From Mycoplasma elephantis ATCC 51980 (GTDB lineage Bacteria > Bacillota_I > Bacilli_A > Mycoplasmatales > Metamycoplasmataceae): a stretch of DNA of 36,689 nt. The stretch lies in the NCBI RefSeq assembly GCF_000687815.1, contig NZ_JHXU01000010.1:1-36689 (forward strand), in the 5' to 3' direction. Below, piece by piece: positions 13,459-21,403 of this stretch; positions within the stretch are counted from its first letter, which is position 1; each line of letters begins with the position of its first letter. The translations under genes and the position numbers were made by a program. A model generated the notes under the pieces. The model did not search any database and was not told where the DNA came from. It saw only the letters and a program-made list of their open reading frames with translations.

Positions 13459-14463
13459 TTATTTATTTTCTTCTGCTTCTTTATCTTTTTTAGATTTTCT
13501 TGTTTTTTTAACAGGAATTTCACCTGTTTCATTTATTGATTTTGTGATTGCTTCTTTAACAATCTTATTTTCAACAGTTTTTATTTTTTTTCTAGCTGAT
13601 TCAAGAATTTCTGCTAATTCTAGCATATCTTCTCCTGCCCCAGCACTTTCTAATTGAGCTTGAAGTTTTGTTTGTTTTTTAGCTCTTGTTCTTTTTGGTT
13701 TTTCCTCACCTGACTCTGAAGTTGTTTCTTCTTTTTTAGCTCTAGGTTTTCTAGTTGTCTTTGGTTTGTCTTCACCTAATTCCGAAGGTGTTTCTTCTTT
13801 TTTGGTTCTAGTTCTTTTTGGTTTTACTTCGACATTTTCTGAAGATACTTCTTCTTTTTTAGTTCTAGGTTTTCTAGTTGTTTTAGCTTTTTCGGTTTTT
13901 TGTTTTTCTTCAGCTTCAGCTATAATTTCTTCAGCATTTTTCTTAGTTACTTTTCTAACTCTTTTTTGAGTTTCTGAAGGTTGATCTTTAATCATTAATG
14001 TAGCTTCTGGTGCTTTTGGTTTTTCATCTTCTACTTTAATTTTTGGTTTTTTAGATTTTTCTTTTTTTGCAGCTATTTTAGCTTCTACATCTTTTAATTT
14101 TTTAGCTGTATCTTGCTTACTTTGTTTATCTAATTTATCTTTAGTTGCATCTTTTTTATCTTTTGAATTAGTTTTATCTTCTTCAGGGATAAATACGATT
14201 GAATCCCCTTCAACTAACTTAACAATAGCTTTTTTATAACGATCAGTTCAACCTTTTGAACGGCCTAATGAGGTAGGTTGTTTTTCAAGACGAATAATAT
14301 TAACTCTTGCTACTTTTACCTTATATATAAACTCTATTGCTTTTTTAATTTCAATCTTATTTGTTTTGATATCAACTTTAAAAACATATTCATTATTATT
14401 TGCTGATAATAAATTTGTTTTTTCAGTCATAATTGGCGACTTAATAACTTCTGTATAATGCAT
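13459..14463 (-). CDS. rplW: 50S ribosomal protein L23 with a roughly 235-residue C-terminal extension
   Basis: The frame runs from ATG at 14461-14463 to TAA at 13459 and gives 334 residues, about three times normal L23. Residues 1-97 are the L23 domain ([40 protein letters not shown], then GWTDRYKKAIV with Trp as TGA). I read codon by codon across 13996-14247, between core and tail, and found no TAA or TAG, so the two are one protein. The tail is Lys/Glu-rich, contains degenerate repeats at residues 193-263, then a likely helical stretch (LQAQLESAGAGEDMLELAEI). L23 is the docking site of trigger factor and SRP at the tunnel exit. Confidence 0.92.
13675..13887 (-). repeat. Degenerate tandem repeats in the L23 tail
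   Basis: This section encodes L23 residues 193-263. A unit of about 20-22 residues recurs three to four times, with the consensus KPK-x-TR-x-(KPR)-x-KKEE-x-x-SE-x-x-E. Alternate copies are closer to each other: the KTTRKPR-type and KRTRTKK-type units alternate. The matching DNA copies are similar but not identical. Such repeats can change copy number between strains. Confidence 0.75.
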
Positions 14464-15995: not shown

Positions 15996-16295
15996 TTAAT
16001 TAATTTTTATTTCTACACCAAAAGGTAATTCTGTATGTTTTAAACTTTCAACCAATTTAGCTGATGGTTTAATTAAAGTAATTAATCTTTGATGAGTTTT
16101 TTGTTCAAATTGTTCACGAGATTTTTTGTTAATGTGAACAGAACGTAAAATTGTAAATACTTCGCGTTTTGTAGGTAATGGTACAGGTCCAGAAAATTTA
16201 CATTTTGCATCTTGTGCTATTGTTACGATTTTCTTTGCTGTTATATCAACTAACTCGTGTTCAAATCCTTTAATTTTAATTGTTATTTTTTCCAT
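15996..16295 (-). CDS. rpsJ: 30S ribosomal protein S10
   Basis: This is the first gene of the superoperon. It encodes 99 residues, MEKITIKIKGFEHELVDITA onward, with FSGPVPLPTKREVFTILRSV and HINKKSREQFEQKTHQRLI typical of S10. S10 is a 30S head protein that also takes part in antitermination with NusB in other bacteria. A strong ribosome-binding site (AAAGGAGACAA) precedes the ATG, and a roughly 110-base leader with an inverted repeat lies upstream. No other gene precedes it on this strand for 220 bases, so this is the operon start. Confidence 0.96.
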   Translation of the reverse strand: MEKITIKIKGFEHELVDITAKKIVTIAQDAKCKFSGPVPLPTKREVFTILRSVHINKKSREQFEQKTHQRLITLIKPSAKLVESLKHTELPFGVEIKIN

Positions 16296-18379: not shown

Positions 18380-20053
18380 TTACCGTTTTTTATCAAGATA
18401 TGAGGCAAGTGCAGCTATTAATAAAACCAATAATATTGCAAAAGGACCTCAATAAATAAAGTATGGAACCTCAAATTTTCCGTCTGGACCCAAAAATTTA
18501 TATAGCACACTATAAGCTGCTATACCAGCAAAAATCAAAACTGTAAATTGAAGAATTCCGGAATTTATAGCTTTTTTCTTTTCTCTTTTTGCATCTTCTA
18601 CTGTAAATTTTGTTTCAAGTGCAGAAATGCAATAATCTAGTTTAAATTCTATTTCCGAATTATCAAAAATATCTTTTTTGAAATTAAATTCGTTTTTATC
18701 ATTTATGAATAAATGAAATTCATTTACCTGGTTTTTATAGTATTTAAAAACAGGAACAATATTTTTTAAACCATAAAAATCATATTGAATGCGAGACAAA
18801 TTATAAACTATTGAATCACAAAGAGCTCTAAATGATTGGATATAGTTATAAAAAACGATAAAATCTTTTATAGTCATTGCTTCTTTTATTCCATCTTTAT
18901 CTTTTTTATCATAATTTAATATACTATATAGATCTTTTTTATCTGTTGCTATATACCCGTCATTCGCTACACACTTAGTGATACGATCATTTGTTTTTGA
19001 TTCTGATTTTTCTTCTTTTTTAAAATTAGCTATTTCATTTCATTTTTCGAAATTAATTATTTTTTTGTAAATTGATGAATTTAAAAAATTATTGTATCCC
19101 AAACGACTTGAATCTTTAGAATCTAAAAAAATTGTATTAACAGAACTCAAACCTTCATAATCTATTTCGGGATAATTATTTGATAAAGATAATAAACGAT
19201 CAATTTTACGAGATGATTTTAGTTTAGTTTTTTCGGTAGCTAATTTTAATTTATTTACATATAACGGTGAATATAATGCGCCTTTTAATCTATTTATAAA
19301 TTTAAGTAAGCTTGTTCTTTTTTTAATAAAAATCAATGAAGAGTAGTCTATATTTTTTTCGTTTCTTGAAATTTCACCATAATTTAAAAACAAGTAATTA
19401 ACATGTTCTTTTATAAAATTTAATTTTGCTAAATCGGATAATTTAGAAAAATCACTTAAAATATCTTCATGTTTAAAAATAACATGAAATTTTCTTAGAA
19501 TGTATAAGCTTTTAAAAAAGATTTTTTCTTCATCATTTGATATTAAATCATTAATAGAATACATATAATTAAAATTTAAAATACCTGTGTCATATAATGA
19601 ATAAAAACAATTTGATTCCTTTTGATTTTTATCTCAAATATTTACCATTAGCTCTTCAAAATCAAAATTTGTTTTTTTCACTCTTTCGGCAAAGTCATTA
19701 GAATCATAGTAATTAAATTTATTTTTTAGATTGTATTCCAAAAATAAGTTTTCTTCTTGTTTCATTTCCATTTTTAAAAATTTACTTATTTTCTTAAAGT
19801 TGTCATTGGTTTTATTGTTTTTAGATTGAAATGGTAGGTTTAAGAATTTGCCCAAATCTACAGGAATAATATTCAAAATTTGCGTATCTTTAATATGACG
19901 TATTTGATTATTAAATCAATCGCAAAATTTATCAAAATTACCTCAATCAATTTCAGAAAAATCAGAGTTTTTTAACGCTTGTTTTTTTTTCTTATTTTTT
20001 TGTCTTTTATATTCTCATATTATCTTTCAAGGTATAAATTTTTTATTTTCCAT
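18380..20053 (-). CDS. Protein of unknown function, 557 residues, with two C-terminal membrane helices
   Basis: One long frame with TGA as Trp (at least seven TGA, no TGG seen) runs from ATG at 20051-20053 to TAA at 18380. I do not recognise a family. It has a long, Lys/Asn-rich, probably cytoplasmic region (1-490) with no signal peptide, then a charged helical lead-in (EIEFKLDYCISALETKF, AKREKKKA). Two hydrophobic segments follow, at about 497-519 and 531-551, joined by a short loop (LGPDGKFEVPYF), and the end is basic (DKKR). The layout recalls CorA-type 2-TM-GxN channels, but the GMN motif is absent. A good -35/-10 pair lies immediately upstream. It is separated from recA by 79 bases. Confidence 0.8.
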
Positions 20054-20061
20054 AATAGTTT

Positions 20062-20091
20062 ATTATAAGTTATTTAGTAATATAGTTTCAA
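20062..20091 (-). promoter_or_regulatory. Promoter of the 557-residue gene, likely leaderless
   Basis: On the minus strand, TTGAAA (20086-20091) and TATAAT (20062-20067) are separated by 18 bases, the best consensus match in the window. The -10 box ends only eight bases before the ATG at 20053, and no Shine-Dalgarno sequence fits between. The transcript should therefore begin at or within two or three bases of the start codon. Confidence 0.65.
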
Positions 20092-20252: not shown

Positions 20253-20271
20253 CAAACACTAATATGAATTT

Positions 20272-20301
20272 CATAAGTGTGCTTTGAGAAAAAGTCTTAT
20301 G
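20272..20301 (+). promoter_or_regulatory. Hairpin in the rpsB leader
   Basis: CATAAG (20272-20277) pairs with CTTATG (20296-20301), and an inner CTTT/AAAG stem closes a GAGA-type loop. The element lies 43 bases upstream of the rpsB start and downstream of the predicted promoter, so it is in the mRNA. In E. coli and relatives, S2 represses its own rpsB-tsf operon through a structured leader; a comparable role here is inference. Confidence 0.45.
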
Positions 20302-20344
20302 TTTCGAAATATTAGGAAGTAAAACAAAAAAAGGAATTAAATTT

Positions 20345-21403
20345 ATGGAAAAAATAGAACAAGAAAAGAAAGAAAAAAAACTTTCTACCGATAAACCAAA
20401 AAGAGTTAAAAAAGAGGAAAAAGTAACTGATGCAACTTTAAAAAATACTAGTGAAAAAAGAAGAAAATTAGTTACAGAACCAACAGAAAAAACAAAATTA
20501 GAAAACACAGAAAAAAATGTACAAAAAGAAAATTCAACTGAGTCTTCTAAACCAATAGTTTCAAAAGATAAATTATTAGAATCAGGAGCATACTTCGGAC
20601 ACAAAACATCATTTAGAAACCCTAATATGCAACAATATATTCACATGTCTAAATTTGGAACACATATTATTGATTTAGTTAAAACAACTTTAGCACTTGA
20701 ATTTGCTTATAGAATAATTAATAAGGCTGCGCAAAAAAATGCTTCATTTATATTTGTTGGAACAAAAAGCCAAGCTAAAAAAGTAACACAAGAACAAGCT
20801 ATTAGAACAAATTCATTTTATGTTACAGAAAGATGGTTAGGCGGAACATTTACAAACCATAACGAGATTTTCAAAAGAGTTGGATACTTAGAAAAATTAG
20901 AAGAACTTGAACAAAATGGATTTGCTGGTTACACCAAAAAAGAAGCTCTTGACAAAACTAAGGAATTAGAAAAATTAAAATTAAATCTTACAGGTATAAG
21001 AAAAATGAAGTACTTACCTCATTTCATGATTATTGCCGATCCGCTTGAAAACAAAAATGCTATTAGAGAAGCAAGACAAAAAGGTATAAAAATAATTGGT
21101 ATCTCTGACACAAACTTTGATCCAAACTTGATTGATATACCTATACCAGCAAATGATGACTCATCAAAAACAATTCAATTAATAATTACAATATTGGCTG
21201 ACGCTATAGCAACCGCTCAAGGTCAAAAAGCTAAATTTGCTTATGAACCAGATGAAAATATTGTTTTTGATGTTGAAGAAGAAAAAGAAAATAAAGATAA
21301 AAAACCTTTTGTTAAAAAACCATTTGTTTCAAATCAAAAACAATCAAGTAATTGAAAAGTAAGTCGTCAACCTAAAACACAACAAGAAAAAGAGGTAAAA
21401 TAA
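20345..21403 (+). CDS. rpsB: 30S ribosomal protein S2 with a long N-terminal extension
   Basis: The product is 352 residues when TGA at 21353-21355 is Trp. The S2 domain starts near residue 71 (IVSKDKLLESGAYFGHKTSF) and contains RWLGGTFTNH, MKYLPHFMIIADPLENKNAI and the conserved DTNFDPNLIDIPIPANDDS. Residues 1-70 form a Lys/Glu/Thr-rich extension, and the C-terminus after about 315 is also charged. AAGGA nine bases upstream of ATG supports this start. The stop overlaps the tsf ATG (TAATG), the conserved rpsB-tsf operon. Confidence 0.95.

Follow-up and report, generated by a model that had tools for sequence, protein, structure and literature searches.

A lineage-restricted mollicute membrane protein with a CorA-like two-helix end and no GxN motif

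Introduction

What is a 557-residue protein whose C-terminus is laid out like the membrane end of CorA, but which shows GPD where CorA has GMN? The question is raised by a gene of Mycoplasma elephantis ATCC 51980, in a stretch of 36,689 nucleotides (hereafter, the window). A preliminary description compared the topology of the protein with that of 2-TM-GxN channels, and proposed either a degenerate ion channel or a mycoplasma-specific membrane anchor. This interpretation survives in part: the CorA-like topology stands, but a specific kinship to CorA is unproven. What emerges is a genuine, lineage-restricted mollicute membrane protein.

The gene and its neighbourhood

The gene and the site upstream of it are placed as follows:

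18380..20053, minus strand: whole gene, 557 amino acids, genetic code 4, ATG start, seven TGA codons read as Trp
20062..20091, minus strand: sigma-70-type promoter-like site, TTGAAA-18-TATAAT, the sole match of at least 11/12 in the window

The 557-codon frame found in code 4 is thus the one first described. recA lies downstream on the same strand, rpsB-tsf is divergent and ymdB is nearby. The ORF is real, since a sister species (G002) carries a 55% identical homologue of nearly equal length (551 amino acids) in the same recA/rpsB context. The two genes differ at 179, 122 and 275 sites in codon positions 1, 2 and 3, respectively, and dN is ~0.35 versus a dS of ~1.5; the gene is under purifying selection. 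Its absence from most relatives might suggest a gene in decay or an ORF arisen by chance, but this reading, to which we attach a negligible probability, is refuted: the gene is intact in two species and its dN lies far below dS. The promoter-like site upstream also speaks against it.

That site had been singled out as the best promoter match in the window, and at 11/12 no other is as good. The -10 hexamer TATAAT ends 8 nt from the ATG, and in the G002 homologue (upstream of L002 1468) TATAAT likewise stands 9 nt before the start codon. With the -10 element so close to the start codon in both species, the two mRNAs are probably leaderless. In a more distant relative, from genome G073 (see below), an AAGGAG Shine-Dalgarno sequence takes the place of the close TATAAT.

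Some other features of the window deserve mention. Between positions 16000 and 25000 (9 kb), the number of intrinsic-terminator-like sites is 0 on both strands, with ~2 expected by chance. The rplW gene (13459-14463, minus strand) encodes a ribosomal protein L23 of 334 amino acids, in which a normal N-terminal L23 part is followed by a Lys/Glu/Pro-rich tail of ~220 residues with degenerate KPRTKKEE-type repeats. The product of rpsB (20264-21403, plus strand) bears a charged N-terminal extension of ~70 residues, and a similar one is present in the sister species.

Anatomy of the protein

The polypeptide can be divided as follows:

18872..20053, minus strand: residues 1-394, presumed cytosolic, predicted with low confidence as mixed alpha/beta, without a recognised domain, dN ~0.4-0.5
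18383..18871, minus strand: residues 395-557, CorA-like module of three shorter helices, stalk helix into TM1, loop, TM2 and basic tail
18491..18652, minus strand: residues 468-521, stalk and TM1, predicted single 54-residue helix
18464..18490, minus strand: residues 522-530, GPDGKFEVP, outside loop where CorA has GMN
18386..18463, minus strand: residues 531-556, TM2 followed by the basic tail YLDKKR on the cytosolic side (hydropathy, AF2)

Hydropathy reveals exactly two strong membrane segments, 499-517 and 532-550, and bears out the order described for this end: charged stretch, TM1, GPDGKFEVP loop, TM2, basic tail. KREKKKA precedes TM1 and DKKR ends the tail, so that by the positive-inside rule both termini are expected to face the cytosol. 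The AF2 model of the full-length protein (pLDDT 37.5) is too poor to interpret. The fragment 395-557 gave a mean pLDDT of 73.8 and a pTM of 0.55, with helices predicted at 396-418, 426-444, 453-466 and 468-521, the last running for 54 residues through TM1, and with TM2 at 531-556.

Conservation is unevenly distributed along the protein. Between the window gene and its G002 homologue, dN is 0.41-0.50 for residues 1-394, 0.18 for 395-496 and 0.14 for 497-557; the soluble part thus changes 2-3 times faster than the hairpin and stalk. Because this is the most constrained region, the membrane module probably does more than anchor the protein. Of the proposed "mycoplasma-specific membrane anchor", the restriction to the lineage holds, while "anchor" is likely to be too modest. 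"Degenerate ion channel" fares similarly: a channel is possible, but degeneracy is doubtful in the best conserved part. The ~490-residue N-terminal part had been said to match nothing recognisable, and searches of Pfam, NCBIfam, PHROG, PADLOC and PDB sequence families yielded no match to the 557-residue protein.

Distribution and relatives

Profile searches of 320 genomes of the order detected three members of the family, in the window genome, G002 and G073, in keeping with the label "mycoplasma-specific". The G073 protein belongs to another genus of the same family. It has 515 residues, is 27% identical overall and is encoded beside rpoC and a methyltransferase gene. Its kinship is secure for the C-terminal module, with 35% identity to residues 422-521 (pairwise E 2.5e-12); the loop and TM2 are only ~20% identical. 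No homologue was matched in the third genome of the window's genus, where a different gene occupies the recA locus, or in the remaining 23 genomes of G073's genus. GTDB contigs, viral contigs, and phage and plasmid collections likewise yielded none, and the recA site of 18 relatives holds no positional counterpart with the hairpin layout.

Several candidates were rejected. An apparent relative in G045 is an ABC transporter gene matched by chance. Those low-E matches of the C-terminal profile elsewhere that were examined proved to be ABC ATPases, a P-type ATPase, permeases and coiled coils. Matches to Ig-like, uS4, hexosaminidase, YutD, competence protein and VP11 families are single-member, sub-threshold and mutually unrelated, and were attributed to chance. 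The DUF155/RMND1 family presents another helix-plus-TM outline; Pfam scans gave no match to it.

Two observations concern other genes. In a sugar-type ABC ATPase (L083:142-2364, plus strand, and L094), the nucleotide-binding domain is interrupted by several hundred residues of inserted coiled coil. Downstream of metG in G073 (L027:11904-16001, minus strand), lipoprotein-like genes with PKKEDPKKDE repeats stand in a row that includes a near-perfect tandem array, NATPKEEKQNPHVPKGQPEWEDELHKFGQPDE; these genes probably encode variable surface proteins.

Resemblance to CorA

Two readings of the C-terminal module have to be weighed. In the one that we tentatively prefer, while giving it somewhat less than an even chance, residues 395-557 would form a GxN-less, CorA-like oligomeric membrane module, remote or convergent, that carries a new cytosolic domain. 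The strongest rival is nearly as likely. It assumes an unrelated, lineage-specific cytosolic protein tethered by a C-terminal hairpin, with its N-terminal domain doing the work at the membrane face and the resemblance to CorA arising by topological convergence.

The predicted structure leans weakly towards the CorA-like module. When the 395-557 model was compared by Foldseek with 350,542 PDB chains, ranks 1-15 were all CorA, with E values of 0.06-0.36 (best 0.064), a probability of up to 0.95 and TM-scores mostly of 0.3-0.5. MjCorA and CmaX/ZntB were also among the matches, and CorA ranked first even with the poor full-length model. The preliminary description had looked for a helix of at least 50 residues into TM1 and for a CorA match in Foldseek; the 54-residue helix (pLDDT 73.8) and these E values (0.06-0.36) weakly support its idea. 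A simple hairpin anchor would leave two things poorly accounted for: CorA dominates the fold matches despite the many other long-helix proteins in the PDB, and the slow evolution of hairpin and stalk would be unusual for a passive anchor.

Sequence comparison also gives a weak signal for CorA. Unconstrained alignment by hhalign to 26 CorA sequences placed residues 498-557 along the TM1, loop, TM2 and tail of CorA and opened just one gap, of one residue (E 0.004, probability 8%; the range of probabilities versus CorA is 2-8%). G522-P523-D524 falls exactly on CorA G-M-N, as had been described, and each of the three members, aligned singly, falls on the same CorA stretch. Residues 498 and 515, which in this alignment lie on N288 and T305, polar TM1 sites of T. 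maritima CorA, each read S/S/N, polar in all three members. T305, M302 and N314 are pore residues of CorA (PMC3629940).

The tethered-protein reading draws on the same comparisons. Against CorA, the members score 23.1-25.5 and an unrelated membrane protein 23.7; among shuffles that preserve hydropathy, 9 of 300 and 15 of 300 (3-5%) do as well as the protein itself. The module profile retrieves the CorA gene in 0 of 50 CorA-bearing genomes, and residues 1-440 give no CorA profile signal. These results leave kinship of the module to CorA possible but unproven. No family matches the protein significantly in sequence or structure; PF01544 matches none of the three members, whether whole or by the C-terminal part. 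CorA was not found above the PF01544 cut-off in any of 58 genomes searched; the weak matches in relatives all lie below it, and the window genome has no match at all. It must also be noted that the lines of evidence favouring CorA are not independent, as each of them depends on the combination of long helix and hairpin.

A tentative working model

If the CorA-like module is assumed, some 490 residues, including the novel part of ~390, would be cytosolic. A helix of ~54 residues would pass straight through TM1 and be followed by a short outside loop, TM2 and a basic tail returning to the cytosol. The stalk/TM1 helices might self-assemble into a small oligomer, as in CorA, and their TM1 bundle could either line a hydrophobic, normally closed pore or transmit a signal at the membrane. 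The cytosolic N-terminal domain may control the module by binding a ligand or a partner.

A bolder version of the CorA-like module, which we regard as rather unlikely, holds that mycoplasmas, in which no ordinary CorA is detected, possess a new branch of the CorA architecture that lacks GxN. Its members would form an oligomeric pore, or a stalk that transmits signals, and would carry ~390 cytosolic residues of an undescribed kind. Should the CorA likeness be true, a pore scaffold would have lost the ion filter by which the superfamily is defined, while strong selection preserved its stalk and hairpin; such a scaffold would offer a natural test of what it does in the absence of the filter. Should it be false, the protein would still be an orphan membrane protein kept in a lineage of minimal genomes, its soluble domain recognised by no library.

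The GxN position and magnesium

Could the protein belong to the 2-TM-GxN (CorA/ZntB) family and work as a divalent-cation channel, with GPD substituted for GMN in its filter? Much of the layout is in place: two C-terminal TM helices, a short outside loop and a basic tail (hydropathy, AF2), and a long stalk helix predicted to run into TM1. The exact placing of GPD on GMN in the profile alignment adds to this. However, the position in question reads GPD in the window protein, GPG in G002 and KDS in G073. Across these three members GPD is not a conserved motif, with neither Asn nor Gly retained; such free variation also suits a hairpin that merely tethers. CorA relatives that have lost MPEL nevertheless keep GxN, where x is Met, Val or Ile (PMC9276622). 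Because the position reads GPD, GPG and KDS, the GxN that characterises the 2-TM-GxN/CorA-MIT superfamily is lacking in all three, and the 557-residue protein is not classed here as a 2-TM-GxN member.

Magnesium supply argues in the same direction. MgtE was found in the window genome and both congeners. It is a more plausible route for magnesium uptake than the 557-residue protein, whose gene is missing from one congener and from almost all relatives. With the filter absent and MgtE present, the protein appears not to be a CorA-type Mg2+ selective channel. A working divalent-cation channel is, on balance, very improbable.

Comparison with known systems

CorA (PF01544; T. maritima 2IUB/4I0U/8TMB, M. 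jannaschii 4EV6) shares with the protein the stalk helix into TM1, the short loop, TM2 and the basic tail; it provides the top PDB matches for the C-terminal module and a weak in-register profile alignment. In contrast to CorA, the 557-residue protein has neither GxN nor MPEL and reaches no significant score, its N-terminal 394 residues are longer than the CorA N-domain and devoid of CorA signal, and its lineage has no CorA above the family cut-off. ZntB/CmaX (7NH9) has the same 2-TM architecture and gives a Foldseek match of E 2.3, but members of the 2-TM-GxN group keep the GxN loop and no sequence similarity was detected. MgtE (PF01769), the Mg2+ transporter family actually present in the window genome and its relatives, is unrelated to the protein in fold and sequence.

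Another comparison is with the SAM-AMP activated, CorA-like effector of type III CRISPR systems in B. fragilis. By analogy, the protein might be a membrane effector in which a large sensor domain sits on a CorA-like C-terminal pore and ligand binding leads to depolarisation of the cell. The patchy distribution of the gene would suit such a role, as would the shared outline (PMC10600005). On the other hand, PADLOC profiles gave no match at E up to 10, and the gene lies among housekeeping rather than CRISPR or defence genes. Neither cas10 nor SAM-AMP-degrading enzymes were found beside it, the neighbours being ymdB, recA, rpsB and tsf in the window, and rpoC and the methyltransferase gene in G073. 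For want of a PADLOC match and in view of these neighbours, nothing found links the gene to defence, and a CRISPR-like effector role is very improbable, slightly more so than a divalent-cation channel.

As an analogy of design, likened by description and not by sequence, the B. fragilis protein nonetheless appears to be the closest published one in outline. Only its C-terminal 172 residues are CorA-like, beneath a different cytosolic domain (PMC10600005). This plan, a CorA-like membrane module of ~170 C-terminal residues under a cytosolic domain of another kind (PMC10600005, PMC11229360), is the one that the 557-residue protein would share.
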